Positions 3,899 to 33,948 of a DNA stretch of 33,948 nt are shown here, piece after piece. Numbering within the stretch: position 1 is the first letter of the stretch; every line of letters starts with the position of its first letter. The DNA comes from an uncultured Rhodospirillales bacterium (lineage in GTDB: Bacteria > Pseudomonadota > Alphaproteobacteria > Acetobacterales > Acetobacteraceae), in NCBI GenBank assembly GCA_903843125.1, contig CAIMOR010000541.1, forward strand, positions 1 through 33,948, in the 5' to 3' direction. Made by a program: the position numbers and the translations under genes. Under the pieces are notes generated by a model. The model was not told the origin of the DNA, made no database searches, and worked only from the letters and a program-made list of their open reading frames with translations.

Positions 3899-4047
3899 CT
3901 TTCCTGCCCTTCCTGTCGCGGCAGGGGCGACGCCCCGCTACGCGCTGATGCACGAGCAAAGCAAGCGATGTGCCATGGTAAACGGCTGCACAGCCCTGGC
4001 CGGGGGCGCACACTCACGCAGCGGTTGCCGCCAAAACGGGCAGAAGC

Positions 4048-5544
4048 TCAGGCCGCCGTCTGCCAACCGCCGCCGAGCGCCTTGTAGGCCGCCACCAGGT
4101 CGGTTGCGGCCAGCGCCGCGCTTTCGGCTGCCGCCAGCTCGGCGGCCAGCCGCGTCCGCTCGGCGTCAAGCACGTCCAGGAACGTGCCCAGCCCGGCCAG
4201 GAACCGCGTGCGGGACAGCCCCGCTGCGCGCCCGGCCGCCTGCGCCTGGCGCAACAGCCCAGCATGGCGGCCCTGCTCGCCATACCAGGCGGCCAGCGCG
4301 TTCTCGGCTTCATGCAGCGCGTCCAGCACCGTCCGCCGCCAGGTGATCGCGGCCGTCTGCGCCCGCGCCTCCTCCAGCCGAACCTGGGCGCGCAGTCGGC
4401 CACCCTCGAAGATCGGCACCACCAGCGCCGGGCCGATGGAGAAGAACCGGCTGGCCAGATCGAACAGGTTGGCGGTGTTGCCGCTCTGCAGGCCGATGCT
4501 GCCGTTGATCCGCAGCGACGGATACAGCTGCGCCACCGCCACGCCGATCCGCGCCGTCTGTGCCGCCAGCGCTGCCTCCGCCGCCGCCACGTCCGGCCGC
4601 CGGCGAATGACATCGATCGGCACACCGACCGCGACGACCGTCGGCATCGACGACAGCGGCGGCGGCTCCGCCAGCCGCGCCGTCAGCCCGCCCGGCGGCA
4701 GTCCGAGCAGGCGGGCCAGCCGGTTCATCGCCTGGGTCTCCTGCGCCTGCAACTGAGGGATCGTCGCTTCGGTACCAGCCTGCTGCGCCTCGGCATTGGC
4801 CACGTCCACCTCGGTGGCGAAGCCGGAGCGGAAGCGCGACCGGGTCAGCCCCGCGGTATCGCGCTGCAGCCCCAGGCTGCGTTCGGCGATGCCGCGGCGC
4901 GCCTGCAGGCCGCGCAGCTCAAGGTAGGTCCGCGCCGCCTCCGCCCGCAGCGAGAGCCGGGCATTGTCCAGCAGCCGCTGAGCTCCCAGCAGGTCGGCAT
5001 CGGCCGCCTCGATGCCGCGGCGGGTGCGGCCCCACAGGTCAACCTCCCAGGCCGCATCGAAGCCGAGTTGATAGATCGCCAGGCCCGGCTTCGGCCCGGT
5101 CGGGATCGTCACGCCCTGCGACGCACTGGGCTGGCCGCCCACGCTGGGCTGGCCGCCAGCCAGCGCGGCGAAGGGACTGTTCTGGCTGATCCGTAGCCGC
5201 GTGTCGGAGCCATTGGCCGAGAGCGTCGGCCAGAAGCCGGCGAAGGCGATGTCGCGCTGCTGCCGGGTCTCGGCGATGCGCGCAGCGGCTTCCTCAAGGT
5301 CCGGGTTGCCCGCCTCCACCGCCAGCACCAGGTCGGCCAGCAGCGGATCGTTGAAGCTGTTCCACCAGAGATTGTCGACCTCGGCAGGCACGGCCCGGCC
5401 TTCCGCGAAGCGCGGTGGCGTCAGGGCTGCCGGGCTCCAGCCCGCCGGGGTGGCGGCCTGCGGCCGGCGGAAGTTCGGCCCCACGTTGCAGCCGGCCAGC
5501 AGCAGTGGCGCCGCCAGCAAGGCCCGTCTTCGGCTAATGGCCAC
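4048..5544 (-). CDS. NodT/OprM-family outer-membrane efflux lipoprotein
   Basis: A 498-residue outer-membrane channel lipoprotein, third component of the EmrAB efflux pump upstream. The N-terminus has a lipobox LLLAGC with Cys19 as the lipidation site, followed by NVGPNFRRPQ, the hallmark opening of the NodT/OprM family. Two OEP repeats with long Ala-rich helices are visible, including RRPDVAAAEAALAAQ in the second repeat. The start is a GTG at 5544, preceded by AAGGGGAAG about eight bases upstream, and overlaps the end of the MFS gene by 11 nt, so the genes are translationally linked. It would form the trimeric channel through the outer membrane. Confidence 0.93.
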   Translation of the reverse strand: MAISRRRALLAAPLLLAGCNVGPNFRRPQAATPAGWSPAALTPPRFAEGRAVPAEVDNLWWNSFNDPLLADLVLAVEAGNPDLEEAAARIAETRQQRDIAFAGFWPTLSANGSDTRLRISQNSPFAALAGGQPSVGGQPSASQGVTIPTGPKPGLAIYQLGFDAAWEVDLWGRTRRGIEAADADLLGAQRLLDNARLSLRAEAARTYLELRGLQARRGIAERSLGLQRDTAGLTRSRFRSGFATEVDVANAEAQQAGTEATIPQLQAQETQAMNRLARLLGLPPGGLTARLAEPPPLSSMPTVVAVGVPIDVIRRRPDVAAAEAALAAQTARIGVAVAQLYPSLRINGSIGLQSGNTANLFDLASRFFSIGPALVVPIFEGGRLRAQVRLEEARAQTAAITWRRTVLDALHEAENALAAWYGEQGRHAGLLRQAQAAGRAAGLSRTRFLAGLGTFLDVLDAERTRLAAELAAAESAALAATDLVAAYKALGGGWQTAA

Positions 5545-7117
5545 GTGGCGCTTCCCCTTTCGGCATGTCGCGCATCAGGAAGACCAGCGGCCACAGCAAC
5601 AGCACCGCCACGCCCAGCTCCCAGAAGGCATCTATGTAGGCCAGCGCCTGAGCCTGCGCCGCCCATTGCTGCGCCAGTTGCGGCAGGGCCGCCGCGCTGG
5701 CCGCCCAGTCACCAACGCCGGCGCCGCGCAGCGCCTGTTCGGCCTGATGGAGCTGGTCGGTCCACAGCGGGTTGCTGGCGCTGGCGCTCTCCACCAGCCG
5801 GCTCTGATGGAACTGCGCGCCATGGGTGATGGAAGCGTTCATGACCGATATGCCGACCGAGGCGCCGAGGTTGCGCATCAGGTTGATCAGGGCAGATGCG
5901 TCGTTGGTGCGCTCCGGCGGCAGACCGACATAGGCCGCGGTGGTGATCGGCACGAACAGGAAGGGCAGCGCCATCACCTGCAGGATGCGCAGCCAGGACA
6001 CCATCCAGAACGACACCTGAAGGTCGATCCGCGTGGCGTACAGCAGGGCACCACCAGACCACAGCAGCGCCACCATTATCACCCAGCGTGGCTGCACCCA
6101 GCCGGTTACCCGGCCGGCCAGCGGCATGACGAAAACGGTGGCCAGGCCGCCCACCGCCAGAGTCAGCCCCGCCGTGGTCGCGTCGTAGCCCATCAGGTCC
6201 TGGGTCAGCTGCGGCAGCAACTGCGTGGTGCTGAACAGCGTGAAGGCCACCAGGAACATGATCAGCCCAGCACCGAGGAACGACCGGTAGCCGAACAGCC
6301 GAACATTCACCGCCGGCGCCCGCTGCCGCCGTTCCCACGGCACCAGCGCGACGAAGCCGACCACGCAGGCCACCGTCAACCAGGTGATGGTGGGCGACCA
6401 GAAGCCGTCATCGATCACGGCGCGGTCCAGCACGATCTGCAGGCTGCCGAGCGCCACCGCCGCCAGCAGGAAACCCACCCAGTCGATGCCGCCGCCTTCG
6501 CGCAGGAAGCTGGCGCGGTCCTGCTTCACCGCCTCCGGTTCCTGCACGAAGACCGAGACCAGGAACAGCGACAGCGCGCCGACCGGCAGATTGATCAGGA
6601 AGATCCAATGCCAGGAGTAGTTGTCGGTGATCCAGCCGCCCAGCGCGGGACCGATGGCCGGCGCCGTCACCACCGTCAGGCCATAGAGCGCGAAGGCGCG
6701 GCTGCGCTGCTCCGGCGGAAAGCTGTCGGCCAGGATGGATTGCTCGGCCGGTGCCAGCCCGCCACCGCCGATGCCCTGGACAGCCCGGCACAGCAGCAGC
6801 ACGCCGAGCGATGGCGACAGCGCGCAGCCAAGCGAGGCCACGGTGAACAACGCCACGCAGCCCATGTAGAAGCGCTTGCGGCCGAGTGCGGTCGCCAGGT
6901 AGCCGGAGACCGGCAGGACGATGGCGTTGGTGACCAGGTAGGTGGTCAGTATCCAGGTGCTCTCGTCCTGGCTCGCCCCCACGCCGCCGGCCATGTGGCG
7001 CAGCGCGACATTGGCGATGGTGGTGTCCAGCACCTCCATGAAGGTGGCCAGCGAGACGATGCAGGCGATCAACCAGGGGGAGCGGTTGCCGGCGGCGGAA
7101 CGAGGCAGGTCGGCCAT
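5534..7117 (-). CDS. emrB: DHA2-family (EmrB-type) MFS multidrug exporter
   Basis: A 527-residue inner-membrane proton-driven drug exporter with about 14 hydrophobic helices, the length and layout of the DHA2 family. FMEVLDTTIANVAL in the first helix and the antiporter motif C region GPALGGWITDNYSWHWIF are clear. It starts two bases after the membrane-fusion gene stops and overlaps the following outer-membrane gene, which makes a three-gene tripartite pump operon (EmrA-EmrB-OprM order). The exported compound is unknown. No TetR or MarR regulator is immediately adjacent on the same strand. Confidence 0.94.
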   Translation of the reverse strand: MADLPRSAAGNRSPWLIACIVSLATFMEVLDTTIANVALRHMAGGVGASQDESTWILTTYLVTNAIVLPVSGYLATALGRKRFYMGCVALFTVASLGCALSPSLGVLLLCRAVQGIGGGGLAPAEQSILADSFPPEQRSRAFALYGLTVVTAPAIGPALGGWITDNYSWHWIFLINLPVGALSLFLVSVFVQEPEAVKQDRASFLREGGGIDWVGFLLAAVALGSLQIVLDRAVIDDGFWSPTITWLTVACVVGFVALVPWERRQRAPAVNVRLFGYRSFLGAGLIMFLVAFTLFSTTQLLPQLTQDLMGYDATTAGLTLAVGGLATVFVMPLAGRVTGWVQPRWVIMVALLWSGGALLYATRIDLQVSFWMVSWLRILQVMALPFLFVPITTAAYVGLPPERTNDASALINLMRNLGASVGISVMNASITHGAQFHQSRLVESASASNPLWTDQLHQAEQALRGAGVGDWAASAAALPQLAQQWAAQAQALAYIDAFWELGVAVLLLWPLVFLMRDMPKGEAPRGH

Positions 7118-15714: not shown

Positions 15715-15730
15715 TGCAAGGCAAGTGCCG
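15715..15730 (-). promoter_or_regulatory. Sigma-54 (-24/-12) promoter of the minus-strand glycosyltransferase
   Basis: On the minus strand CGGCACT-TGCC-TTGCA matches the RpoN consensus TGGCACG-N4-TTGCA in 14 of the 16 positions, counting the free spacer, with the required GG-N10-GC. The predicted transcription start near 15704 gives a leader of about 39 nt to the ATG at 15665. It is divergent from a second sigma-54 element at 15751. Confidence 0.6.
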
Positions 15731-15750: not shown

Positions 15751-15766
15751 TGGCACGCAGCTTGCG
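15751..15766 (+). promoter_or_regulatory. Sigma-54 (-24/-12) promoter of the STAS/EPS-export operon
   Basis: TGGCACG-CAGC-TTGCG is an almost perfect RpoN site (GG at 15752-15753, GC at 15764-15765). The predicted start near 15777 gives a leader of about 29 nt to the ATG at 15806. A weak dyad-like CGGCAATTCGGCA lies upstream at 15729-15741 but matches the regulon dyad in only 8 of 13 positions. Confidence 0.75.
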
Positions 15767-15805: not shown

Positions 15806-16165
15806 ATGATCAGCAGCATCAACTCCGGCCCGCACGGCAATCACCTTGCCATTTCCGGCGCGCTGGATGCCGAGGGCGCTCTCGCGCTACGTCCCTTGTT
15901 GGAAGTGCTGGCAGCCGATGCGAGTCGGGACCTGGCCATCGACATCAGTGAGGTCACCTACATGGACGGTTCCGGCGTTGGCGCCCTGGCCTTCACCTTC
16001 AAGCGGCTGGCGGCGCATGGCTACACGCTGAAGCTGGCAGGCGCCTCCGGTCAGCCGTTGGCGCTGCTGCGCAAGCTGGGGCTGGACCGCACCCTGGGCA
16101 TTGCCGCCGCCGCCCCGCGCCGCCTGGGCTTCGCCGCCGCCCTGGGCCTGGCCCGCGCCGCATGA
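15806..16165 (+). CDS. STAS-domain protein (anti-sigma-factor antagonist-like)
   Basis: A 119-residue soluble single-domain STAS protein. The conserved loop YMDGSGVGALAF (52-63) aligns with the phosphorylation loop of SpoIIAA-type antagonists, with Ser56 at the phosphoacceptor position and Asp54 before it. It is the first gene behind a sigma-54 promoter and overlaps the next lipoprotein gene by four bases (ATGA), so it belongs to the EPS-export operon. No partner kinase (RsbW/SpoIIAB type) is visible in the window. It could act in a partner switch that gates EPS production, or as a scaffold; neither can be decided from sequence. Confidence 0.88.
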   Translation: MISSINSGPHGNHLAISGALDAEGALALRPLLEVLAADASRDLAIDISEVTYMDGSGVGALAFTFKRLAAHGYTLKLAGASGQPLALLRKLGLDRTLGIAAAAPRRLGFAAALGLARAA

Positions 16166-16545
16166 GAAGCGCCGCCCTGCTGTCGCTGCTCCTCGCCCTG
16201 GCCGGCTGCACCAGTTGGCCGGAGACCGGACATGGCGGCATGGCGGAATACCGCGCGCCCCGGTTGGCGGAGGATGCCACGCCGGACCCCGCGGCCGCGA
16301 CCCTGCGCCTGCGCCTGGGCTGCGTCATCAACCGTCTGGACACGCTGCACCAGCAGGCCGAGCAACGCGGCGTGCTGACCGGCCGGTTCATGCTGGCGCA
16401 GGCTGAATCGGCGCTGGTCCAGCGCGAATTCGCCGCCGGCTTCCTGGCGGATGCCGAGCGCAGCCTGCAACGCCTGCGCCTCACCACCGACACCCTGGCG
16501 GCCGAGCTGCCGCCCGGCACCACCCTCGCCCCGGAGTGTTCCTGA
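16162..16545 (+). CDS. Small lipoprotein of unknown function in the EPS-export operon
   Basis: A 127-residue predicted lipoprotein with signal MRSAALLSLLLALAGC and Cys16 as lipidation site. The mature part is mostly helical, with a region around residues 50-115 rich in Leu, Gln, Ala and Arg that suggests a coiled coil. It also contains Cys54 and a Cys next to the C-terminus (ECS). I do not recognise the family. It overlaps the STAS gene by four bases and abuts the SLBB export gene directly. Co-transcription with the export channel suggests a helper (pilotin- or assembly-type) role in the outer membrane; this is inference. Confidence 0.8.
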   Translation: MRSAALLSLLLALAGCTSWPETGHGGMAEYRAPRLAEDATPDPAAATLRLRLGCVINRLDTLHQQAEQRGVLTGRFMLAQAESALVQREFAAGFLADAERSLQRLRLTTDTLAAELPPGTTLAPECS

Positions 16546-18657
16546 ATGCACCGCCCGCCGCGTCTGCTCCTGGCCCTGGTCCTGCTGCTGCTGGCCGTGG
16601 CGCCCGCCTGGGCGCAACCGGGCGCGCAGCCGCGGCTGAACGTGGGCGACGTGCTGCAGGTGGTGCTGCCGGGCGAGGATGCCTTCGCCAATACCTTCCA
16701 GATCGACCGCGAAGGCCGCATAGACCTGCCCGAGGCCGGGCCCACGGAGCTGGCCGGGCTGACGCTGCGCGAGGCGCGCGACCGGGTGCGCGAAACCCTC
16801 TCGCGCCATTACCGCGACCTCTCCCGCTTCAACCTGGTGCTGCGCGAGCGAAAGCTGCTGCTCTCGGTGTTCGGCTATGTGAAGACGCCCGGCCCGGTGG
16901 AGCTGCCGGCCGGCGCCAACGTGCAGCAGGCCCTCGGCGCCGCCGGCGGATTGAACGCGGGCGCCCAGCTCGACAGGTTGCAGCTTCGCCGCCAGGGCCA
17001 GGAGCCGATCACCTTCGACTACAAGCGCTACCTGGATACCGGCGACGCCCGGCTGCTGCCGCCGCTGCGCCCGCTGGACGAGGTGTTCGTGCCGGCCAGC
17101 CCACAGACCGGCAATGTGGAGATGCCGTTCGACGGCCATGCCGCCAGCAGCGATGCCGATGACCGGCAGGCGGTGCGGGTGTTCGGCGAGGTCAACAACG
17201 CCGGCAGCTTTTCATGGCGCCAGGGCATGACAGTGATGGACGCGCTGCTGCGCGCCGGCGGCGTCACCCGCTTCGCCGGCACCGAACAGGTGCGGATCAT
17301 CAGCGGCACGGAACCGCGGCTGTTCAACCTGAAGACCTATCTGGACAGCGGCAATGCCAGCCTGAACCCGGAAGTGGCGGCCGGCACCACGCTGTTCGTG
17401 CCCGCGCTGACGGAAGCGGTGCGCACCGGGCCGAGCGTGATCTACATGATGGGCGAGGTACAGCGCGCCGGCGCCTTCGAGGTGCGGGCCGGCACCAGCT
17501 TCTTCGACATATTGGCCAATGCCGGCGGCCCCACCCGTTTCGCCGATACGCGCAACCTGAAGATCATCCGCGCCGATGGCCGCACGGTGGAGATGTTCGA
17601 CCTGGGCGGCTTCATCGAACGCGCCGGCGGCCGCCCGCCCGAGGTCCGCCCGGGCGACGCCATCTTCATTCCGGAAAAGCAGCAGCAGGAAAGCACCAGC
17701 TGGCTGCGGACGCCGCCTTCCCGCGCGGTGCGGGTGCTGGGCGCGGTGAAGAGCCCCGGCCGGTTGGAGTGGGCCGACGAGATGAGCCTGCTGGATCTCA
17801 TCGCCCAGACCGGTGGGCCGACCGAGCGCGCCGACATGGCCAACGTGCAGATCCTCCCGGGCGACAGCCGCGGCGCCGCGCTGCACTTCAATCTGAAGCG
17901 CTTCCTGGAACAGGGCGGTTCGCTGGCCAGCCTGCCGGTGATCCATGCCGGCTACACCATCTCCATCGCCGAACTGCCGCCGGCCCCGCCGGGCGACAGC
18001 CGCACCACCTGGCTGCGGCAGCGCTCGGACAGTTCCATCTACGTGATGGGCGCGGTGGGCGCGCCGGGGCGCTACGCCTTCGAACGCGGCCTCAGCTTCC
18101 TCGACATCGTCAGTGCCGCCAACGGCCCGACGCCCGCCGCCGATATCATCAATATCCGCGTCTCGCATCGCAGCGAGGCGCGCGACCGCGTCACCCGGGT
18201 GAACCTGGCGGCCTATTTCGAGACCGGTGACGACACGCTGCTGCCCGTGCTGCTGCCCGGCGACGTGATCTTCGTGCCCGACCGCAACCGCAACTGGCTG
18301 GAGATTGCGCCCAACAACGTGGTGCGCGTGCTGGGTGCGGTGGGCAAGCCGGGCCGCTATCCGCTCGGCGCCGGCATGACGATCCTGGACCTGCTGGCGG
18401 AATCCGGCGGCCCCACCGGCTCGGCGATGGACAACCGCATCGTCGTGGTGAACCTCAGTTGCTGCGGCAACGAGGCCCGCACCTTCGACCTGCCGCGCTT
18501 CGCCCGCACCGGCGACTTTGCCATGCTGCCGCTGGTCCGGCCCGGCGACACGATCTACGTGCCGAACCAGCAGCAGAGCGACTGGCGCTTCTTCTTCGAC
18601 AACCTGCGAGACGTGGTCACCGCCATCTCCATCCTCGCGCTGCTCAAGGTGATTTGA
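16546..18657 (+). CDS. Polysaccharide export protein with six tandem SLBB domains
   Basis: A 703-residue Wza-related export protein. A signal peptide (cleaved after APAWAQ, about 24; no lipobox) precedes a Poly_export domain (about 29-100, LNVGDVLQVVLPGED). Six SLBB repeats follow at roughly 104-182, 209-286, 298-376, 394-476, 497-578 and 592-673. Each begins with a VxGxVxxPG-like strand and most end in PGDxIFVP. The C-terminus (about 690-703) is a hydrophobic helix like the membrane anchor of Wza. Classical Wza has two to three SLBB-type domains in about 380 residues, so this would build a much taller periplasmic tube. It directly follows the small lipoprotein and precedes the CpsD-like gene. 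Confidence 0.92.
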   Translation: MHRPPRLLLALVLLLLAVAPAWAQPGAQPRLNVGDVLQVVLPGEDAFANTFQIDREGRIDLPEAGPTELAGLTLREARDRVRETLSRHYRDLSRFNLVLRERKLLLSVFGYVKTPGPVELPAGANVQQALGAAGGLNAGAQLDRLQLRRQGQEPITFDYKRYLDTGDARLLPPLRPLDEVFVPASPQTGNVEMPFDGHAASSDADDRQAVRVFGEVNNAGSFSWRQGMTVMDALLRAGGVTRFAGTEQVRIISGTEPRLFNLKTYLDSGNASLNPEVAAGTTLFVPALTEAVRTGPSVIYMMGEVQRAGAFEVRAGTSFFDILANAGGPTRFADTRNLKIIRADGRTVEMFDLGGFIERAGGRPPEVRPGDAIFIPEKQQQESTSWLRTPPSRAVRVLGAVKSPGRLEWADEMSLLDLIAQTGGPTERADMANVQILPGDSRGAALHFNLKRFLEQGGSLASLPVIHAGYTISIAELPPAPPGDSRTTWLRQRSDSSIYVMGAVGAPGRYAFERGLSFLDIVSAANGPTPAADIINIRVSHRSEARDRVTRVNLAAYFETGDDTLLPVLLPGDVIFVPDRNRNWLEIAPNNVVRVLGAVGKPGRYPLGAGMTILDLLAESGGPTGSAMDNRIVVVNLSCCGNEARTFDLPRFARTGDFAMLPLVRPGDTIYVPNQQQSDWRFFFDNLRDVVTAISILALLKVI

Positions 18658-18659
18658 CC

Positions 18660-19349
18660 ATGCGGGAGAACCTGCTGCCCGAAGCCATGACCGAGGAGGT
18701 GGAGGCGTTGTGGCGCACTTTGGTACAGGGCGGCCAGCGCTGCGTCTGCGTCACCTCCGCGGGGCATGGCGAGGGCGCCTCCACGCTGGCCGCCGCGCTG
18801 GCGCGGCGCGCCGTGTTGGCGGGCGAGACGGCGCTGCTGGCCGAGCTCAGTCCGCGCCAGCCAGCCCTGGCGGCGCGGCTGGGCCAGCAGTTGGAACCCG
18901 GCGTGCCGCTGCGGATCGGTGCCGATGGCTTCGGTGCCGTCAGCGTACCGGCCGATGCCGGCGGCAACTGGAAGGAGCCTAGCTACCTGGCCTGGAAGCT
19001 GGCGGAATGGCGGCGCGACTGGTCCATGGTGGTGCTCGATGCGCCGCCGCTGCTGGCCGCCGCGCAGTCGAACGGACCGGGCGGCCTGGCCGTGGCCTCC
19101 AGGGCCGCCACCACGGTGCTGGTGGTGCTGGCCGGCCGCACCAGGGCCGAAAAGGTCCGCCAGGCGCAGGCCAAGCTGCTGCGCGCCGGCGGACACCTCT
19201 CCGGCGTGGTGCTGAACGACCGCGAGAACCCGTCGCTGCGCGCCGAGATGGAACGCGAGTTGGGCCGCCTGGCGCGTTGGGCACCGCGCCTGGTGGATAA
19301 GGTGCGCAACCGGCTGCGGCGCTCCGCCGTGCTGGGGATGCGGGTCTGA
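18660..19349 (+). CDS. CpsD/CapB-like P-loop protein with degenerate Walker A
   Basis: A 229-residue protein of the BY-kinase (CpsD/Wzc kinase) fold that starts two bases after the SLBB gene. The P-loop region reads SAGHGEGASTLA (33-44): Ala40 replaces the invariant lysine of GKST. The Walker A' segment is ALLAELSPRQP (58-68), where the usual two Asp are Glu62 and Ser64. Walker B VVLDAPP (124-130) with Asp127 is kept. The C-terminus is basic (KVRNRLRRS) and has no tyrosine cluster. The sequence suggests a pseudokinase or regulatory partner of the separate Wzz-like protein at 21929 rather than an active tyrosine kinase. The upstream frame is open, but the ATG at 18660 is the sensible start. 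Confidence 0.85.
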   Translation: MRENLLPEAMTEEVEALWRTLVQGGQRCVCVTSAGHGEGASTLAAALARRAVLAGETALLAELSPRQPALAARLGQQLEPGVPLRIGADGFGAVSVPADAGGNWKEPSYLAWKLAEWRRDWSMVVLDAPPLLAAAQSNGPGGLAVASRAATTVLVVLAGRTRAEKVRQAQAKLLRAGGHLSGVVLNDRENPSLRAEMERELGRLARWAPRLVDKVRNRLRRSAVLGMRV

Positions 19350-19391
19350 GCCACCGCGCCGGGGTGCCCGCCTGAGCGGCTGCGACCACCG

Positions 19392-19404
19392 CCGCATTCT
19401 GCAA
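19392..19404 (+). promoter_or_regulatory. Regulon dyad upstream of the sigma-54 promoter at 19416
   Basis: CCGCATTCTGCAA matches the dyad TTGCATTCCGCAA (reverse complement of the copy at 31487) in 10 of 13 positions. It ends exactly 11 nt before the -24 element, the same spacing as at 31487 and 33016. Confidence 0.55.
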
Positions 19405-19415
19405 GGCGGCCTGCA

Positions 19416-19431
19416 TGGCACGGCGGCTGCC
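19416..19431 (+). promoter_or_regulatory. Sigma-54 (-24/-12) promoter of the acyltransferase operon
   Basis: TGGCACG-GCGG-CTGCC keeps the full -24 box and the GG-N10-GC spacing (GG 19417-19418, GC 19429-19430). The predicted start near 19441 gives a leader of about 26 nt to the ATG at 19467. It lies in the only sizeable gap between 15806 and 26295, so it probably drives the block from 19467 to 26295. Confidence 0.68.
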
Positions 19432-19466
19432 TTGCCAGCCGCGAACCCGATGCGGAGACCGAGGCG

Positions 19467-20177
19467 ATGAGTGCAGTGCTGGCCGTCAGGCAACATATCA
19501 AGGCTCAGCAGACGCCCCTGGCCAAGCTGGCCTGGCGCGGCGTGCAGGCGGTGCGTGGCGCCCGCGTGCCGATGGTGCGGCCGCTCCACGCGGCGCTCTA
19601 CGCGCTGCACACCGGGCTGCGCGATACGCTCTCGCAGGTGGCGCGGGCGCTGTACTGGACCCCATTGCTGCTCTCGCGCTGCGAAACCCCGGCGCCCGGC
19701 CTGCGGCTCGAGGGCGGCATGCCTTTCATCGCCGGGCCGCTGCGGCTGCGGCTGGGGCGCGACGTGCGGCTTTCCGCCGCTGCCACGCTTTCGGCGCGGC
19801 CCTCCTCGCGCCCCCGGCCGATGCTGGAGGTGGGCGATAATGTGGATATCGGCTGGCAGACCACCATCGCGGTGGGCACCCGGGTAGTGCTGGGCAACAA
19901 TGTGCGGCTGGCCGGTCGCAACTTCCTGGCGGGCTACCCCGGCCATCCGCTGGACCCCGTGGCGCGTGCCGCCGGTCTGCCCTGCCAGGATGCGCAGTGC
20001 GGCGACATCGTGCTGGAGGACGATGTCTGGCTCGGCACCGGCGTCACCGTGCTGGCGGGCGTGCGGATTGGCCATGGCACCGTGGTGGGCGCCGGCTCCG
20101 TGGTGACGAAGGATCTGCCGCCGATGGTGCTGGCCGGCGGCAACCCATGCCGCGTCCTCCGCGCGTTGGCGGGCTGA
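19467..20177 (+). CDS. Left-handed beta-helix (hexapeptide-repeat) acyltransferase
   Basis: A 236-residue transferase related to WbbJ/maltose O-acetyltransferases. After a basic amphipathic N-terminal region of about 75 residues, hexapeptide repeats run from about 110 to the end, for example VGDNVDIGWQTTIAVGTRVV and IVLEDDVWLGTGVTVLAG, closing with the family ending AGGNPCRVLRAL. It probably adds acetyl or another acyl group to a sugar of the EPS. It heads a polycistron behind a sigma-54 promoter, and the next gene starts six bases after its stop. Confidence 0.87.
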   Translation: MSAVLAVRQHIKAQQTPLAKLAWRGVQAVRGARVPMVRPLHAALYALHTGLRDTLSQVARALYWTPLLLSRCETPAPGLRLEGGMPFIAGPLRLRLGRDVRLSAAATLSARPSSRPRPMLEVGDNVDIGWQTTIAVGTRVVLGNNVRLAGRNFLAGYPGHPLDPVARAAGLPCQDAQCGDIVLEDDVWLGTGVTVLAGVRIGHGTVVGAGSVVTKDLPPMVLAGGNPCRVLRALAG

Positions 20178-20182
20178 GCGGC

Positions 20183-21343
20183 ATGGCCCGCGACCTGATC
20201 GTCTTCGGCGAGGATTGGGGCGCGCACCCCTCCTCCACCCAGCACCTGGTTCGGCTGCTGGCGGCGGACCGTGGCGTGCTGTGGGTCAACAGCATCGGCC
20301 TGCGCCGCCCGCGGCTGTCGGTGCGCGACCTCGGCCGGGCCTGGCGCAAGCTGCGTGCCGCGCTGGCACGGCCTGCGGCTGATGGCGCGCCGGCACGGCC
20401 GGGCGCCGCCATCCAGTGTGAGACGCTCGGCCCGCTCGCGCCGTTCCCCGTGGTGCAACCGCTCGCGCTGCCCATGGCCCAGGGCATGTGGGCGCGGGCG
20501 CTGAACCGGGTGTTGCTGGGTCGCCGGGTGCGCGGCGCCGCGGGCGCGTTGCGGCGGCCGGTGGTATGGGCCAGCCTGCCCTCCGCGGTGCAGGCGCTCG
20601 GCGCCTGTGGCGAGAGCGCGGTCGTGTACTACTGTGGCGACGATTTCGGCGCCCTGGCCGGCGTGGACCACGCGGCCGCCCTGGCCATGGAAGCCGAGAT
20701 GGCCGCCCGCGCCGACCTGATCCTGGCGGCATCGCCAGCCCTGGCGGCGCGCTTCCCCGCGCACAAGACGGCGCTGCTGGAACATGGCGTGGACTACCGG
20801 CTGTTTGCCACGCCGGCGCCCCGCCCAGCCGATCTGCCGAAGGGCCCGGTAGCCGGCTTCTACGGCTCCCTGGCGCCCTGGCTGGACCTGCGGCTGGTAG
20901 CGGCCACCGCCCGCCTGCTGCCTGACTGGCGTTTCCTGTTCATCGGCAACCCCTCGGCCGGCACCGATCTTGCGGCGCTGGAGGGGGTGGGCAACATCGT
21001 ACGGCTGGGGCCGAAGCCGCATGCCGCGCTGCCGGGCTATGCCCAGCATTGGACGGCGGGGCTGATCCCGTTCCTCGACAACGACCAGATCCGCGCCTGC
21101 AATCCGCTGAAGCTGCGCGAATACCTGGCGGCCGGTCGGCCCGTGGTCAGCACGCCATTCCCGGCGCTGCAGCCCTATGCCGGGCTGGTGCACCAGGCGA
21201 CGACGGCCGCTGGCTTCGCCGCCGCCCTGCAGGCCGCCGCCGCGGCGGCGCCCGGCCCTGATGCCGCCCGCCAGCGGGCAGTGGCCGCCGAATCCTGGTC
21301 GGCCCGGGCCGCCCGGGCGGCACAACTGATCGAAGCGCTGTAG
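20183..21343 (+). CDS. Glycosyltransferase, GT-B fold (TuaH-like)
   Basis: A 386-residue glycosyltransferase. It opens with DLIVFGEDWGAHPSSTQHL, typical of the TuaH-like branch that acts on exopolysaccharides and teichuronic acids. In the middle is YYCGDDFGALAGVD, then AGFYGSLAPWLDLRLV as the start of the donor domain, and near the end NPLKLREYLAAGRPVVSTPF, the nucleotide-sugar region. The frame is open about 60 codons upstream, overlapping the acyltransferase gene, so the ATG at 20183, five bases after that gene ends, is preferred. Donor and acceptor are unknown. Confidence 0.87.
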   Translation: MARDLIVFGEDWGAHPSSTQHLVRLLAADRGVLWVNSIGLRRPRLSVRDLGRAWRKLRAALARPAADGAPARPGAAIQCETLGPLAPFPVVQPLALPMAQGMWARALNRVLLGRRVRGAAGALRRPVVWASLPSAVQALGACGESAVVYYCGDDFGALAGVDHAAALAMEAEMAARADLILAASPALAARFPAHKTALLEHGVDYRLFATPAPRPADLPKGPVAGFYGSLAPWLDLRLVAATARLLPDWRFLFIGNPSAGTDLAALEGVGNIVRLGPKPHAALPGYAQHWTAGLIPFLDNDQIRACNPLKLREYLAAGRPVVSTPFPALQPYAGLVHQATTAAGFAAALQAAAAAAPGPDAARQRAVAAESWSARAARAAQLIEAL

Positions 21344-21395
21344 GATGCCCCGGCGCAGCCCGATTCAGCGTTGCGCGGGAAGGAGTTGCCTTCGC

Positions 21396-21890
21396 ATGTC
21401 GCGCCGCCTGCTGCCCCTGTTGCTGTTGCTGGCCGCCTGCCAGCCCTCGCCCGAGCAAACCCTGGCGCTGGCCCAGCTCCGCGCCACGGGTGGCGGGGAT
21501 GCCAGCGGTGGCACCAGCGTAGCTGCCATGCTGGCTCGCGCCCGTGCCGCCGCTGCCGGGCCGCCGGGGCAGCTGGTGCTGCGCTACGGCGCCACCGAGG
21601 TATTGCCCGACGCGGCCCAGCGCAGCGAGCTCAGCCGCTTCGCCACCGCCAACCACGGCGCGCCCGCGGTGGTGGTGCTGGCGCGCGCAGCCGGAGCCGC
21701 GGGCGAGGATGCCTCGCTGCTGAGCCAGCGCCGGGCGTTGGCCGTTGCTCGCCTTTTGCAGGCGGATTTCCGCGAAGTGCAATTGCGATTCGAGAAGGAA
21801 GCCCCCGTCGGCCAGGTCTTGGTGCTGCGGGAGGCTGGCACACCGCTTGCCCCAGGCGCTGCTGTCCCCACGCCATCGCGCCAGCCCTGA
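21396..21890 (+). CDS. Small OmpA-like lipoprotein
   Basis: A 164-residue predicted lipoprotein with lipobox LLLLAAC and Cys15. The ATG at 21396 follows GGGAAGGAG with a ten-base spacer and directly precedes the signal; an upstream in-frame ATG at 21345 would spoil the signal peptide. The C-terminal half (GQLVLRYGATEVLPDAAQ, then LSQRRALAVARLL) has the spacing of an OmpA-like peptidoglycan-binding fold, but the usual NxxL/DxxG/R signature is incomplete. It probably sits at the outer membrane facing the cell wall. Position between a glycosyltransferase and the Wzz-like gene ties it to EPS assembly. Confidence 0.8.
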   Translation: MSRRLLPLLLLLAACQPSPEQTLALAQLRATGGGDASGGTSVAAMLARARAAAAGPPGQLVLRYGATEVLPDAAQRSELSRFATANHGAPAVVVLARAAGAAGEDASLLSQRRALAVARLLQADFREVQLRFEKEAPVGQVLVLREAGTPLAPGAAVPTPSRQP

Positions 21891-21928
21891 TCCAGGGGCG
21901 GCGGCGGTTGTGGGACACCGGAGCCGCC

Positions 21929-23401
21929 ATGACCGCCGCATCCACCGCCGCCGGCAACACCGCCGCCCCTCCGCCGCTGGCCGAGGTGATCCACGGGCTG
22001 TTGGCCGCTGCCTGGCGCCGGCGCTACGTGATCGCGCTGCCTATCCTGGTACTGCCGGTCGTCGGCGGCATCATCGGTGGCTTCGCCCCGCGCAGCTATG
22101 AGGCGCGGATGAGCGTGCTCATCCAGGACCCGGCCAAGTTCAACCCATTCATGGAAGACCTGACGGTCCATTCCAACCTGCGCGACCGCATGGAGGGCCT
22201 GCGTGCCCTGGTGACCAGCCGCTACGTGCTGGCCGAGGTGGCCAAGGACCTGGAGATGATCCCGCGTGACGCTTCCGAGCGCCGGCAGAGCGAGGCGGTG
22301 AGCTACCTGGCCGCCGGCGTCTCGGTGCAGTTGGTCGGGCAGGAAATGGTGGAGCTGCGCTACCGCGCCGCCAACCCCACCGGCATGGACCAGGTGCTCA
22401 CCCGCATCGGCGAACGGTTTATCGAACGCGTACGCGGACCGGAGGACAGCAGCCTGCGCAGCAGCACGCGCTTCCTGGAGGGACAGATGCGCACCGCCAC
22501 CGCCGAGCTGGACGACGTGGAAACCCGCCTCTCGGCCTTCAAGACCGAACACGCCGCGCAACTGCCGGACCTGCGCGCCACCAATATCCAGCGCCTGGCC
22601 GCGCTGCGCGAGCAGCTGGCGGACCGCGAAGTGAAGCTGGCCGGCGCCGAGGGCGAGGTGGGCGCGATGCGCGAACGCCTGCTGGCCACCAACCCGGTGC
22701 TGGGCCGCATCGAGCAGGACATCGTCACCACCATGGGCGAGCTGGCCCTGCTGCGTGCCCGCTACACCGACGACCATTCCAGGGTTCAGGCGGCGCAATT
22801 CAAGCTGGACCGGCTGGAGCAGGAGCGCCTGGCCCTGCTGGAAGCCGCCCGCACCGCACCGAACATGGACCCCAACCGGCTGTGGAACCTGGCCGCCATG
22901 GCCGAGCCGCGCAGCGAGCGCGCGCAGCCACTGCTCATCAGCCAGGTCGGCGCCATGGCCGGCGTGCGCGACCGCGTGGAGCAGTATCGCGCCGAGGTGG
23001 CCAACCTGCGGGCCGGCATCACCGAGGTCGAGGCCCGCATCGCCGGCAGCGGCGAGGTGGAACGCCAGATCCGCGGCCTGGAACGCGACGTGGCGGTGAA
23101 GGCCGAGCTCGTCACCACGCTGCGCCGCCGCTACGAGATGGCGCAGGTGACCACGGACCTTGCCATCCAGCAGGCCCCGGAACGCATCAAGATCATCGAC
23201 CGCCCGTTCGTGCCGACCGCGCCGATGAAGCCGATGCAGCTGATCTTCACCATCGTCGGCCTGGTCGCCGGCATCGGGCTGGGTATCGGGCTGGCGGTGC
23301 TGATGGAGTTGTTCGACAGCACCTTCCGCCGCGCCCGCGACGTGGAAAAGGCTACCGGCGTGACGGTGCTGGCGCGCATGCCGCCGCTGGCCCGGGCCTG
23401 A
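21929..23401 (+). CDS. Wzz/GumC-type polysaccharide chain-length determinant
   Basis: A 490-residue inner-membrane polysaccharide co-polymerase. The first transmembrane helix is at about 33-53 (YVIALPILVLPVVGGIIGGF) and the second at about 437-460 (LIFTIVGLVAGIGLGIGLAV), preceded by the proline-rich PTAPMKP. Between them lie the Wzz domain (ARMSVLIQDP at about 59-68) and long coiled coils of roughly 175-375 (LEGQMRTATAELDDVETRLS). There is no fused kinase domain; the CpsD-like partner is separate at 18660. The ATG at 21929 is chosen because the hydrophobic N-terminus follows it; the frame itself is open from 21371. It sets EPS chain length and links to the SLBB exporter. Confidence 0.92.
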   Translation: MTAASTAAGNTAAPPPLAEVIHGLLAAAWRRRYVIALPILVLPVVGGIIGGFAPRSYEARMSVLIQDPAKFNPFMEDLTVHSNLRDRMEGLRALVTSRYVLAEVAKDLEMIPRDASERRQSEAVSYLAAGVSVQLVGQEMVELRYRAANPTGMDQVLTRIGERFIERVRGPEDSSLRSSTRFLEGQMRTATAELDDVETRLSAFKTEHAAQLPDLRATNIQRLAALREQLADREVKLAGAEGEVGAMRERLLATNPVLGRIEQDIVTTMGELALLRARYTDDHSRVQAAQFKLDRLEQERLALLEAARTAPNMDPNRLWNLAAMAEPRSERAQPLLISQVGAMAGVRDRVEQYRAEVANLRAGITEVEARIAGSGEVERQIRGLERDVAVKAELVTTLRRRYEMAQVTTDLAIQQAPERIKIIDRPFVPTAPMKPMQLIFTIVGLVAGIGLGIGLAVLMELFDSTFRRARDVEKATGVTVLARMPPLARA

Positions 23402-30451: not shown

Positions 30452-31396
30452 TCAGGCTGCGCGGTCGAGCGCGCTGAGCAGGCTCTCGCAGGTCAGCCGC
30501 AGACCTTGTTCCAGCGGCACCCTCGCCTGCACGCCCAGCGTCGCAATGGCAGCCCGCGGGTCGCCCAGGCTCTGGCGTATGTCGCCGGCGCGGCCAGCGG
30601 TGAAGCTCAGCGCGGCCGGGCGCCCGCTGATGCGCGCCAGGGTCTGCGCCAACGTCAGCACGCTGGTGGCGCGACCGGTACACACGTTGAACACGGCGGC
30701 CTGCGGCGCATGGTGCAGCAGCTTCATGCCGGCCATCAGGTGCGCCACCACGTCGGCGACGTAGACGAAGTCACGGGTCTGGCCGCCATCGCCATGAATG
30801 GTGACGCCCTGGCCGCTGGCCATGCGCGCGGCGAAGATGGAGATGACCCCACTGTAGGGCGACTTCGGGTCCTGCCGCGGCCCGTACACGTTGAAGAAGC
30901 GGCAGCCCAGCGTGGGCACGCCATGCACGCCGAAGCCGACCCGGGCATGCAGCTCGCTGCCGTATTTGTCGGCGCCATAGGCGGTGGCTGGGGTCGGCGT
31001 GGCGGCCTCGACGATCGGGCCGGCGCCCTGGTCGCCGTAGATGGCCGCCGAACTGGCGTAGACCACGGGGATGCCACCGGCATCCCGCGCCGCCGCCAGC
31101 ACGGCGATGGTCCCGCCGAGGTTGGTGCGGTGAGTGCCGAGCCAATCTTCGTTCGACCGCTGGACCGAGGCGATGGCAGCCAGGTGGAATACCCCGGCGG
31201 TGCCGGCGGCGGCCTGGCGCATCAAGGCGGCATCGGCGACATCGCCCACCAGCAGCTCGCAGCGCGGGTCCAGGTTGACGCGATGGCCGGTAGAAAGGTC
31301 GTCCACCACACGCACGCGGTGGCCATGGGCCAGCAGCGCATCCGCCAGGTGGGAGCCGATGAAGCCGGCGCCGCCGGTGACAAGGTAAAGAGCCAT
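30452..31396 (-). CDS. NAD-dependent UDP-sugar epimerase/dehydratase (GalE-like SDR)
   Basis: A 314-residue extended short-chain dehydrogenase. TGGAGFIGSH (7-16) binds NAD, SSAAIYG supplies the catalytic Ser near 116, and Tyr140-x3-Lys144 is the catalytic pair (YGADK). RFFNVYGPRQDP is the substrate-loop signature of UDP-hexose 4-epimerases and related enzymes. The ATG at 31396 starts MALYLVTGGAGFIG directly. It provides a nucleotide sugar for the EPS. The exact epimer (UDP-Gal, UDP-GalNAc or UDP-GalA) is not resolved. Confidence 0.92.
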   Translation of the reverse strand: MALYLVTGGAGFIGSHLADALLAHGHRVRVVDDLSTGHRVNLDPRCELLVGDVADAALMRQAAAGTAGVFHLAAIASVQRSNEDWLGTHRTNLGGTIAVLAAARDAGGIPVVYASSAAIYGDQGAGPIVEAATPTPATAYGADKYGSELHARVGFGVHGVPTLGCRFFNVYGPRQDPKSPYSGVISIFAARMASGQGVTIHGDGGQTRDFVYVADVVAHLMAGMKLLHHAPQAAVFNVCTGRATSVLTLAQTLARISGRPAALSFTAGRAGDIRQSLGDPRAAIATLGVQARVPLEQGLRLTCESLLSALDRAA

Positions 31397-31486
31397 CTAT
31401 GAAGCCTCCGCTTGGGTTGCGGTGGCCCTGGTCCAAGCGCTGTGCCGGCAGTTTGCGGCGATTTCAACGAGCCGGTGGCCGAATGC

Positions 31487-31499
31487 TTGCGGAATGCAA
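31487..31499. promoter_or_regulatory. Regulon dyad TTGC-N5-GCAA upstream of the exosortase unit
   Basis: TTGCGGAATGCAA is a clean dyad with 4-bp arms (TTGC/GCAA). It ends exactly 11 nt before the -24 box at 31511. Copies related to it stand before four other EPS promoters or candidates. Confidence 0.7.
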
Positions 31500-31510
31500 C
31501 GCGATGCGCC

Positions 31511-31526
31511 CGGCACGCGGGTTGCA
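31511..31526 (+). promoter_or_regulatory. Sigma-54 (-24/-12) promoter of the CTERM protein-exosortase operon
   Basis: CGGCACG-CGGG-TTGCA differs from the RpoN consensus only at the first base; GG at 31512-31513 and GC at 31524-31525. The predicted start near 31537 gives a leader of about 32 nt containing AGGAG before the ATG at 31569. Confidence 0.78.
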
Positions 31527-31568
31527 GAACGGCCGGTCGGTGAAATCCAACCTGAACAGGAGAGAACG

Positions 31569-31793
31569 ATGAGATACGTCAGCCTGCCCACGGCGCTGCT
31601 GGCCTGCGCGCTGGCCGCCAATGCCGCCCGCGCCGAAGACGGCAATGACCGGAAGGACGGAGGCGGCGCCGGGTTTACGGCCGGAGCGGTTTCCCAGGCA
31701 CCGCTGCCGCTGGCGGGCATTCCCACCGCTGTCGCGCTGCTGGTCGGCGCCGGCCTGACCCTACGTCGCCGCCGTTCCGGTTCTGCTGCCTGA
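31569..31793 (+). CDS. Tiny exosortase-substrate candidate with C-terminal sorting tail
   Basis: A 74-residue protein. Residues 1-22 form a signal peptide ending in ARA. Residues 23-44 are a short Gly/Asp/Lys-rich segment. The C-terminus has PLP (45-47), a hydrophobic helix (about 48-65) and RRRR (66-69), the tripartite plan of PEP-CTERM/VPLPA-CTERM sorting signals. The upstream frame to 31422 lacks a signal; the ATG at 31569 has AGGAG at good spacing and lies in the predicted leader of the sigma-54 promoter. The exosortase gene starts two bases after its stop. If both ends are removed the mature product would be only about 22-28 residues. It could instead be a plain small membrane protein. 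Confidence 0.8.
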   Translation: MRYVSLPTALLACALAANAARAEDGNDRKDGGGAGFTAGAVSQAPLPLAGIPTAVALLVGAGLTLRRRRSGSAA

Positions 31794-31795
31794 AC

Positions 31796-32620
31796 ATGGC
31801 TGCGCGCGTCCTGCCCTGCGCCAGACTCCAGGACCCGGAACCGGTGGGGCGAGGACTGGCGGTACCGGCGGTGTCGGTGCCTAATCTGCGGGTTCGTGAG
31901 TTGCTGCTGCCGGCAGGGACGGCTGCTTTCGTACGCCTGTCATGGGCGGGGGCGCCCGGTTGGGCCTCGCCACCGATGCTGCTGGCTCTTGCCGCCACGG
32001 TCCTGCTGCTATGGCAGATGCCAGCGCGGCGGGCCGGGCCGCGTGACGTCGCCGGCTTCGCGCTGGCACTGGCGGCCATTGCGCTGCCAGGCGGCCTGCC
32101 CTGGCTGGCGCTGCCCTGCCTGGCGGTGCTGGCGTTGCCAGGGGCGCAGCTGGCCGGCGTGCTGCTGCTCGGACTGGGCGCCGAAGGCCTGAGCCACGGC
32201 TTGGCCGGCCAGCTGGTACTGGTGCCGGTGGTCGCGGCGGAGGCCTGGGCCACGGCGACGTTGGCCAATCTCTGCGGGACGCCGGCGCACCCTTCCGGCG
32301 CAGCCGTGCTGCTGCCGCATGGCCGGGTGCTGCTGCTGCTGCGCGCGTGTTCCGTGGTTTCGCTGTTCTGGCCCACGCTGCTCGCCACTCTGGCCTTGCC
32401 CGCGCTGCTGCACCGTGCGACGCGGCCTGTCTGGGGCCCGGCGTTGGCGGCCCTTGGACTGATGCTGCTGCTGAACCTGCTGCGTCTGCTGGCCATGGCG
32501 CTGTCGCCCGGCGCGCACGCCTTCCTCCACACGCCCGCCGGCGAGGAGCTGACGGAAATCACCTTCGCCCTGCCGCTCCTGCTGGCTTTGGTATCGGTGC
32601 CGCCGTGCGCTGGCCGCTGA
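31796..32620 (+). CDS. Divergent exosortase (exosortase/archaeosortase family)
   Basis: A 274-residue multi-pass membrane protein with about seven to eight hydrophobic segments. The family triad is visible: Cys185 in RACSVVSLFWPTLLA (compare the ACSG loop of exosortases), Arg230 in LNLLRLLAM (compare ANxxR) and His245 followed by Gly249 in FLHTPAGEE (compare HExxG). Spacing of 45 and 15 residues suits the family. The expected Gly after CS is Val187. The start has no ribosome site and relies on coupling to the substrate gene two bases upstream. It would cleave the sorting tail of the 74-residue protein at the membrane. I cannot assign a named Xrt subfamily. Confidence 0.82.
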   Translation: MAARVLPCARLQDPEPVGRGLAVPAVSVPNLRVRELLLPAGTAAFVRLSWAGAPGWASPPMLLALAATVLLLWQMPARRAGPRDVAGFALALAAIALPGGLPWLALPCLAVLALPGAQLAGVLLLGLGAEGLSHGLAGQLVLVPVVAAEAWATATLANLCGTPAHPSGAAVLLPHGRVLLLLRACSVVSLFWPTLLATLALPALLHRATRPVWGPALAALGLMLLLNLLRLLAMALSPGAHAFLHTPAGEELTEITFALPLLLALVSVPPCAGR

Positions 32621-33015
32621 GCAGCGCCGCGCTGGCCCTGGCGCTGGGCCTGGCCTGGCCCCCCGCCCAGCCGCCGGCCGCGGCCACGGCGCCACGCCAG
32701 GGATTGCCCGGATTCCGCTTGGTGGCGCAGCACAACCTGGTGGCCGAGGGCCGCCTGCACTATGCGCTGCTGCGCAACGCCGCCGGTTGCCAGTTGGTGC
32801 TGGCGCCGCTGGACCAGCCGGAGGAAATGCTGCCGTTGCTGCAACAGGCGCTGCCGGACCACACTTGGCGGTCCGCGGTGCTGCTGCTTGATCAGCAGGC
32901 CTACCCGCTGGGCTCGGCGCTTGGGGTGAACCTGCGGCGCCTGCGCGAAAGGCTGCTGACCGGCACCGCCCCGGCAGCGTGGTTCCTGGCCGACCCGGAG
33001 CAGTGCCGGCGCTGA
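32605..33015 (+). CDS. Unknown exported protein coupled to the exosortase
   Basis: A 136-residue protein starting at a GTG at 32605, inside the last 16 bases of the exosortase gene. The frame is open further upstream, but this start places a hydrophobic segment (SSAALALALGLAW) at the N-terminus as a signal peptide or anchor. The rest is soluble with two Cys (in GCQLVL and near the end, EQCRR) that could form a disulfide in the periplasm. I do not recognise the family. Its place after an exosortase is where EpsI-type partners often stand, but EpsI is longer and no resemblance is evident. Confidence 0.7.
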   Translation: MRWPLSSAALALALGLAWPPAQPPAAATAPRQGLPGFRLVAQHNLVAEGRLHYALLRNAAGCQLVLAPLDQPEEMLPLLQQALPDHTWRSAVLLLDQQAYPLGSALGVNLRRLRERLLTGTAPAAWFLADPEQCRR

Positions 33016-33055: not shown

Positions 33056-33085
33056 ATGCCGCCGCGGACGCCAGGGAACCCTACC

Positions 33086-33948
33086 ATGCACACCCCCGCC
33101 TTCGACTGGAGCATCGCCGTTTTCGCCCGCAATGAGGCCGCCAGCCTGGCACCTTGCCTGGAGGCGATATACGCCGCGCTCGGCGGCCGCTGCGCCGCGG
33201 TGACGCTGGTGCTGAATGGCTGCACCGATGGCTCGGCCGCGCTGGCCGTCGCGCTGGCCGCCCGAGCGCCCGTGCCGGTCCAGGTCTGGCAGATCGGCTT
33301 TGCCGACAAGGCCAATGCCTGGAATCAGTTCATTCACGCGCTGCGCCCCGCCGCCCGCCACTACGCCTTCGTGGACGCCTATGCGCGGGTACAGCCCGGC
33401 GCGCTGGCCGCGCTGCAGGCGGCATTGCAGGCGGCGCCCGAGGCGAATGCCGCCGCCGCGGTCCCGAGCTGCGGCCGCAGCGCCGCTGCCACCCGCGCCG
33501 CCATGCTGGCCAGGCCGGCACTGCATGGCTCCCTGCACGCGTTGCGCGGCAGCTTCGTGGACCGCCTTGCCGCTGCTGGGCAGCGCCTGCCGGTCGGGCT
33601 GTATCGCGGCGACGGGCTGCTGGGCAGCCTGCTGATGCACGACCTCAACGCAGCAGCCAACCCGTGGAACCCCGCGCGCATTGCGGTGGCCGATGGCGCC
33701 AGCTGGGTGACAAGCCCGCTTTCACCGCTACGCCCCGCCGACCTCAAGCGCTACTGGAACCGCCGCATTCAGCAGGCGCGTGGCCGGCTGGAGGACGCGG
33801 CGCTGCGCGAGGCCATCTACCGCGACGGTTTCGCCGGCCTGCCGCGTCACGCCGACGCCATGCTGCTGGAGTGGCTGGCCACCAACCCGGCCCCTGCGGA
33901 CCACTTCACCCGCCTGGCGCTGCAGCGCCTGCGCCAGCCCCGCACCCC
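33086..33948 (+). CDS. Family 2 glycosyltransferase-like protein (partial, runs off the right edge)
   Basis: An open frame of at least 287 codons that continues past the window. The N-terminus FDWSIAVFARNEAASLAPCL and LVLNGCTDGS (41-50) match the GT-A nucleotide-binding fold of family 2. The metal motif region reads FVDAYARV, with Asp97-Ala-Tyr99 where DxD is usual, so metal binding may differ. The ATG at 33086 follows CCAGGGA and a sigma-54 promoter. It is likely an EPS glycosyltransferase, but the substrate and full length are unknown. Confidence 0.85.
   Translation, partial: MHTPAFDWSIAVFARNEAASLAPCLEAIYAALGGRCAAVTLVLNGCTDGSAALAVALAARAPVPVQVWQIGFADKANAWNQFIHALRPAARHYAFVDAYARVQPGALAALQAALQAAPEANAAAAVPSCGRSAAATRAAMLARPALHGSLHALRGSFVDRLAAAGQRLPVGLYRGDGLLGSLLMHDLNAAANPWNPARIAVADGASWVTSPLSPLRPADLKRYWNRRIQQARGRLEDAALREAIYRDGFAGLPRHADAMLLEWLATNPAPADHFTRLALQRLRQPRT

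Follow-up and report, generated by a model that had tools for sequence, protein, structure and literature searches.

The VPEID-CTERM/exosortase E (XrtE) system of alphaproteobacteria combines a dedicated or nearly dedicated enzyme-substrate pairing with tiny substrates. The complete VPEID-CTERM substrates inspected here are 64-91 aa long, lengths being given only for rows with a start that could be fixed; between signal peptide and motif lie about 7-35 residues, often rich in Gly. The sole VPEID gene above cut-off in our first class-wide search adjoined an exosortase E/protease gene (590 bits, L098), and 16 of the 149 searched relatives of that genome have a VPEID gene. The VPEID/XrtE pairing is not always one to one, since the genome G820 contains four VPEID matches.

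The XrtA/PEP-CTERM system with PrsK/PrsR has many substrates per genome. A sigma-54 promoter upstream of the substrate genes has been described for proteobacterial PEP-CTERM genes (Haft 2006, PMC1569441). Archaeosortase A, a distant relative, is reported to join its substrates to lipid (PMC7157517).

The locus described here lies in a window (the whole stretch of DNA that was analysed) of 33,948 nucleotides from an uncultured Rhodospirillales bacterium. It contains a small gene, an adjoining exosortase-family gene and an accessory gene (Table 1). We consider it likely that the small gene codes for a dedicated, and probably the sole, substrate of the downstream exosortase, and that it belongs to an EPS cluster under sigma-54 control, the core of which resembles syp.

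A single, tiny and probably dedicated substrate is what the window has in common with the XrtE system. The motifs differ, APLPLAGIP standing in place of VPEID; XrtE carries a fused CAAX-type protease; and filing under VPEID-CTERM/XrtE was rejected, as there was no VPEID motif and no match to TIGR04161 (substrate) or TIGR04162 (exosortase). With the XrtA system the locus shares the tripartite C-terminal signal, the exosortase catalytic residues, nearby EPS genes and sigma-54 promoters. However, the motif is not PEP, the exosortase is not XrtA, PrsR is absent above cut-off, and a search of the window's genome with the PEP-CTERM model (TIGR02595) gave nothing up to E 1, for which reason this filing was also rejected. 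The original prediction held that typical CTERM proteins are far larger; this applies to XrtA substrates but not to those of VPEID-CTERM, which are equally short, so that the small size of the window substrate is no longer surprising.

By eye the PLP motif resembles that of VPLPA-CTERM, with which the tail also shares its architecture, but neither the VPLPA model nor TIGR04152 (XrtD) matched at E up to 1, and VPLPA-CTERM/exosortase D was rejected. The LPXTG anchor model (TIGR01167) gave 16.1 bits, 0.2 above its cut-off, yet the LPXTG motif is absent; this filing was rejected as well, and automatic annotation may mislabel such genes. GVDTG-CTERM (NF058571) matched all four homologues below threshold (best E 0.0022, 18.3 bits, cut-off 29), and membership was not assigned.

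The small protein and its gene neighbours

The 74-aa protein has the general tripartite CTERM architecture, with signal peptide, motif, hydrophobic helix and terminal basic cluster. The signal peptide, judged by eye, has R2, the hydrophobic core LPTALLACALAA and ARA before E23. Residues 23-44 (EDGNDRKDGGGAGFTAGAVSQA) comprise six Gly, four Ala, three Asp and one Lys, and the PLP, in the context APLPLAGIP, is followed by LAGIPTAVALLVGAGLTL and then RRRR. From these features the protein appears to be exported and would be trimmed by the adjoining exosortase to a peptide of about 22-28 residues. The original prediction, a sorting substrate of which the mature part would be very small, is supported: translation and coordinates are correct, residues 1-22 look like a signal peptide, and a 22-residue segment separates them from PLP at 45-47. 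It had called the segment rich in Gly, Asp and Lys, which is true of Gly and Asp but not of the single Lys.

The reading frame is open upstream as far as a GTG at 31422. The start at 31569 is well supported by the AGGAG 6 nt 5' of the ATG, by homologues with the same start and by the sigma-54 box, which lies within the upstream extension of the frame; the misassigned start named earlier as a possible refutation did not materialise. A scan of the whole window for a signal peptide, soluble middle and CTERM returned this protein and two fragments of multi-spanning proteins. In a C-terminal block of 27 codons, which aligns with G076 without gaps, 18 of the 29 substitutions fall at third codon positions, an excess that marks a protein under selection. 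With a relative beside another exosortase copy, the third-position substitutions and the scan result as sequence evidence, the open reading frame is more than chance.

Table 1 Features of the locus and of related copies (window coordinates unless a locus handle is given)
Feature	Position	Strand	Basis or remark
Predicted CTERM sorting substrate, 74 aa	31569..31793	+	whole gene
Predicted signal peptide, residues 1-22, ARA before E23	31569..31634	+	sequence; equivalent N-termini in homologues
Predicted mature segment, residues 23-44, Gly/Asp rich	31635..31700	+	sequence; not conserved among homologues
Predicted C-terminal sorting signal: PLP 45-47, hydrophobic 48-65, RRRR 66-69	31701..31775	+	homologue alignment
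Shine-Dalgarno AGGAG	31558..31562	+	sequence; 6 nt 5' of substrate ATG
Sigma-54 (-24/-12) promoter CGGCACGCGGGTTGCA	31511..31526	+	score 22.2 of 22.7, empirical p 0.0016
Weaker sigma-54-like site TGGCCGAATGCTTGCG	31476..31491	+	18.5 of 22.7; could be chance
Exosortase-family protein, 274 aa	31796..32620	+	TIGR04178 sub-cut-off; catalytic residues; orthologue L041
Exosortase residues C185, N227xxR230, H245xxxG249	codons 32348, 32483, 32528	+	
Accessory protein, 136 aa, GTG start overlapping exosortase stop	32605..33015	+	kept in five genomes
Family-2 glycosyltransferase-like gene, cut by window end	33056..33948	+	PF00535 20.8 bits, gathering cut-off 23.3
NAD-dependent sugar epimerase/dehydratase of EPS cluster	30452..31396	-	Pfam PF01370; 57% identity to G519-locus relative
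Sigma-54 box CGGCACTTGCCTTGCA upstream of divergent glycosyltransferase gene	15715..15730	-	score 21.5
Sigma-54 box TGGCACGCAGCTTGCG upstream of STAS gene	15751..15766	+	21.7; GC 41 nt from start
STAS-domain protein (SypA-like), head of EPS operon	15806..16165	+	Pfam STAS
Small lipoprotein (CTSWPETGHGGMAEYRA)	16162..16545	+	relatives in G519, G076 clusters
Multi-SLBB polysaccharide export protein	16546..18657	+	Pfam SLBB; TIGR03027 182.4 bits, cut-off 180
Wzc/EpsG-type tyrosine kinase-like protein	18660..19349	+	TIGR01007 E 1.3e-7, sub-cut-off; relatives in syntenic clusters
Wzz-type chain-length determinant, start not fixed	21956..23401	+	TIGR03007 210 bits, under cut-off 278.85
Small-substrate copies with TAY...ANCN[AS]...C	L079:4591-4821; L092 near 5433-5690		

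The window exosortase scores 16.7-20.4 bits against TIGR04178 (exosortase/archaeosortase), under the cut-off of 23, and its superfamily assignment therefore rests on the catalytic residues and on the G519 orthologue (L041), which clears the cut-off with 24.6-27.9 bits and was detected with a profile of five such exosortases at E 7.7e-41. Among 14 divergent relatives the sole invariant residues are G176, C185, N227, R230, H245 and G249. The window exosortase lacks the Gly of the classical Cys-x-Gly, and profile comparison with true XrtA proteins gave E 3.5e-4 across the catalytic region. By these sequence comparisons it is a divergent exosortase in no named NCBIfam Xrt subfamily. Exosortases are expected to have about eight transmembrane helices; the structure model of the window protein is helical but poor (pLDDT 53.5). 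A sequence search for a PDB relative found none, and plasmids searched by tblastn with the exosortase and with a VPEID substrate gave no match.

The accessory protein has an N-terminal anchor and an alpha/beta domain with conserved Cys62 and Cys134. It is modelled with a pLDDT of about 90 across residues 40-130, but comparison of the predicted fold with the PDB gave no match and no Pfam or NCBIfam family was assigned. In G208 it forms a single open reading frame with the exosortase (L009). It may represent a new family of exosortase partner.

Homologues and the probable pairing of enzyme and substrate

When the 74-aa protein was searched against 299 genomes of the same family, it found, besides itself, a relative in G076 (E 5.9e-8), immediately upstream of the exosortase copy of that genome. 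An independent search with the downstream protein recovered G076 again, at the adjacent position (E 3e-54), and G208 was likewise recovered by both searches at adjacent positions. Ten other weak matches in the family were inspected; none had the signal peptide and CTERM architecture, and they look like chance. The trio of substrate, exosortase and accessory genes is kept in G000, G076, G020, G208, G148 and G519, i.e. in Acetobacteraceae/Rhodospirillales genomes and one genome from another alphaproteobacterial family.

The substrates beside the closest exosortases have 74 aa in the window, 77 in G076 and in G020, 86 in G519, 90 in G208 and 288 in G148. In the alignment the N-terminus and CTERM, as well as the promoter, are conserved, while the middle is variable and mostly of low complexity. 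The G148 protein has the N-terminus (MKRILGTAAV...ADDSQG) and tail of the G020 protein, with a long Gly/Ser/Asp/Asn middle between them. Short length is thus usual but not required. The expectation that homologues would also be short holds for all of these but the 288-aa protein, and conservation of the Gly/Asp region was contradicted. A conserved PLP motif was found in part: it is strict in three substrates (APLP[LI]AGIP), but the others have ELPAHGFG, ALPAPDFG and PGPDFGLG.

More distant exosortases of the same superfamily adjoin substrates of 94 and 129 aa and others of 256-258 aa; those of 256-258 aa have a tail of the same type and carry the NCBIfam domain 'Npun_F0296 family exosortase-dependent surface protein'. 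As the middle ranges from 22 to more than 200 residues, the mature peptide may lack any function tied to its sequence. In G508, G622 and G608, which have the same EPS genes and a distant exosortase, no CTERM substrate was found within 18 kb, which counts against a dedicated pair. The mature parts of the G076 and G519 substrates share TAY...ANCN[AS]...C, with two cysteines, despite belonging to genomes of different families; the window copy is without this motif.

In the genome of the window (98% complete, 572 contigs) the only exosortase-family match is that in the window, and a search of this genome for a second substrate-like protein gave nothing below E 0.15. A single exosortase, no PEP-CTERM protein and no second substrate point to a dedicated one-to-one pair, although a second substrate may have been missed because the genome is fragmented. 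In G519, too, there is a single exosortase match, and PEP-CTERM matches are absent. In G076, G020, G208 and G148 the small pair is accompanied by a strong TIGR04178 match at another position and by 14-62 PEP-CTERM matches per genome, with PrsR above cut-off in three of them. That these four PEP-CTERM-rich relatives still keep the small pair argues that it is a separate, dedicated system. On this genomic evidence the 74-aa protein is probably the only substrate of the adjoining exosortase.

Promoters and the EPS cluster

Candidate sigma-54 boxes were scored with our own weights, built from the general consensus. The strong regulation expected of the substrate gene is supported by the box upstream of it, the GC element of which lies 44 nt from the ATG. 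Such a box was found upstream of all eight substrate genes combined, i.e. that of the window and seven homologous or analogous ones, at a distance of 86 nt in G208, 59 nt in G368 and 34-44 nt in the other six. The empirical p per gene, derived from these loci themselves, was 0.0016-0.046 (Fisher combined 3e-9); a ninth gene, in the distant G616, had no good site (16.5) and was left out of the combination. Boxes equivalent to that of the STAS gene are present in G519 and G076. A further near-consensus box, TGGCACATCGCTTGCT, scores 22.0 of 22.7 on the minus strand at 3960-3975, about 60 nt upstream of a gene for a binding protein of a branched-chain amino-acid type ABC transporter, and is unrelated to the EPS cluster.

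The polysaccharide genes with which the substrate gene had been said to be encoded are present as an EPS cluster, identified from Pfam and NCBIfam matches. In the syp polysaccharide locus of Vibrio fischeri the gene order is STAS, small protein, SLBB export and tyrosine kinase; an exosortase or CTERM gene is not known to us from that locus. The same core order is found in the window, but in the window's genome the regulators are not beside the EPS cluster. Genes of the G519 cluster code for a LuxO-like sigma-54 regulator, a hybrid kinase and a second STAS protein, and also for a kinase-REC-phosphatase protein, the domains of which follow the order seen in SypE (PMC3610818); this regulatory set (L092:11170-17085) has the domain architecture of Vibrio SypG, SypA, SypE and SypF (PMC3610818, PMC4517449). 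As PrsR was not found above cut-off in the window's genome, another activator is to be expected. A regulator on another contig (L100) is 49% identical to that of G519, and we infer that a SypG-type regulator drives these promoters.

EPS clusters with the syp-like core (window 15806-23401; L092, L079, L095, L096, L097) recur across alphaproteobacterial families, each with an exosortase relative. The core consists of STAS, small lipoprotein, multi-SLBB export protein and tyrosine kinase, usually with a glycosyltransferase (SRGMGGIESHV) and a sugar epimerase. Three of the genomes (L095, L096, L097) have the EPS cluster, exosortase and accessory genes and no recognisable CTERM substrate within 18 kb.

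Possible processing and fate of the peptide

The protein architecture and gene pairing argue for export, membrane retention and processing by the exosortase. A sigma-54 activator, acting at the promoters described above, would switch on the substrate, exosortase and accessory genes together with the EPS operon. The pre-protein would be exported and cleaved by signal peptidase after Ala22, and its C-terminal helix would hold it in the inner membrane, so placed that PLP is at the periplasmic face and RRRR reaches into the cytoplasm. The exosortase, through Cys185, Arg230 and His245, would then cleave at or near PLP and hand the 22-28-residue peptide to an acceptor, which by analogy with archaeosortase A and sortase is most likely an envelope molecule linked to lipid or polysaccharide. 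The peptide could plausibly become attached to EPS or to some other acceptor in the envelope, and more speculatively it may decorate or anchor the EPS or envelope. The specific proposal that the exosortase links the C-terminus of the Gly/Asp peptide to the polysaccharide or lipid carrier of the cluster, giving a peptide-capped EPS, we regard as tentative and on balance unlikely.

The protein could instead remain uncut, as a small helical hairpin in the inner membrane that serves the exosortase or the EPS machinery as a subunit or regulator, the PLP being a helix cap. Both ends are indeed hydrophobic and the middle is not conserved, but the AxA-type end of the signal peptide, the tripartite CTERM, the long soluble middle of the 288-aa homologue and the exosortase-dependent-domain substrates of 256-258 aa in the same position beside distant enzyme relatives make this improbable. 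We give just as little credence to an exosortase that acts as a protease only, releasing a diffusible signal or EPS chaperone: the peptide is of the size of signalling peptides, but its sequence differs between close relatives, which argues against a signal read by a receptor, and none of the neighbouring EPS genes was recognised as coding for a receptor. Least probable is a degenerate remnant, in which the exosortase stayed and the substrate lost a functional middle such as the Cys pair ANCN...C of G076 and G519; two mature-part cysteines occur in G076, G208 and G519 and none in the window or G020, and G148 has its 288-aa version, but the frame is intact, the ribosome site and promoter are strong, substitutions in the CTERM are concentrated at third codon positions, and VPEID-CTERM substrates are equally short.

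The preferred reading, a dedicated substrate processed by its neighbouring exosortase, bears on a wider question. To our knowledge the acceptor molecule of bacterial exosortases is still unknown, largely because organisms with XrtA have dozens of substrates. The small substrate/exosortase pair is real and little studied, while the known XrtE system already uses equally tiny substrates; tiny dedicated substrates thus occur outside VPEID-CTERM/XrtE too. A genome with a single exosortase, a single 74-aa substrate and a single EPS cluster would be a minimal system, in which mass spectrometry and genetics could reveal the product. Were the peptide-capped EPS to prove true, this would be a one-substrate enzyme with a modified sugar polymer as its real product.
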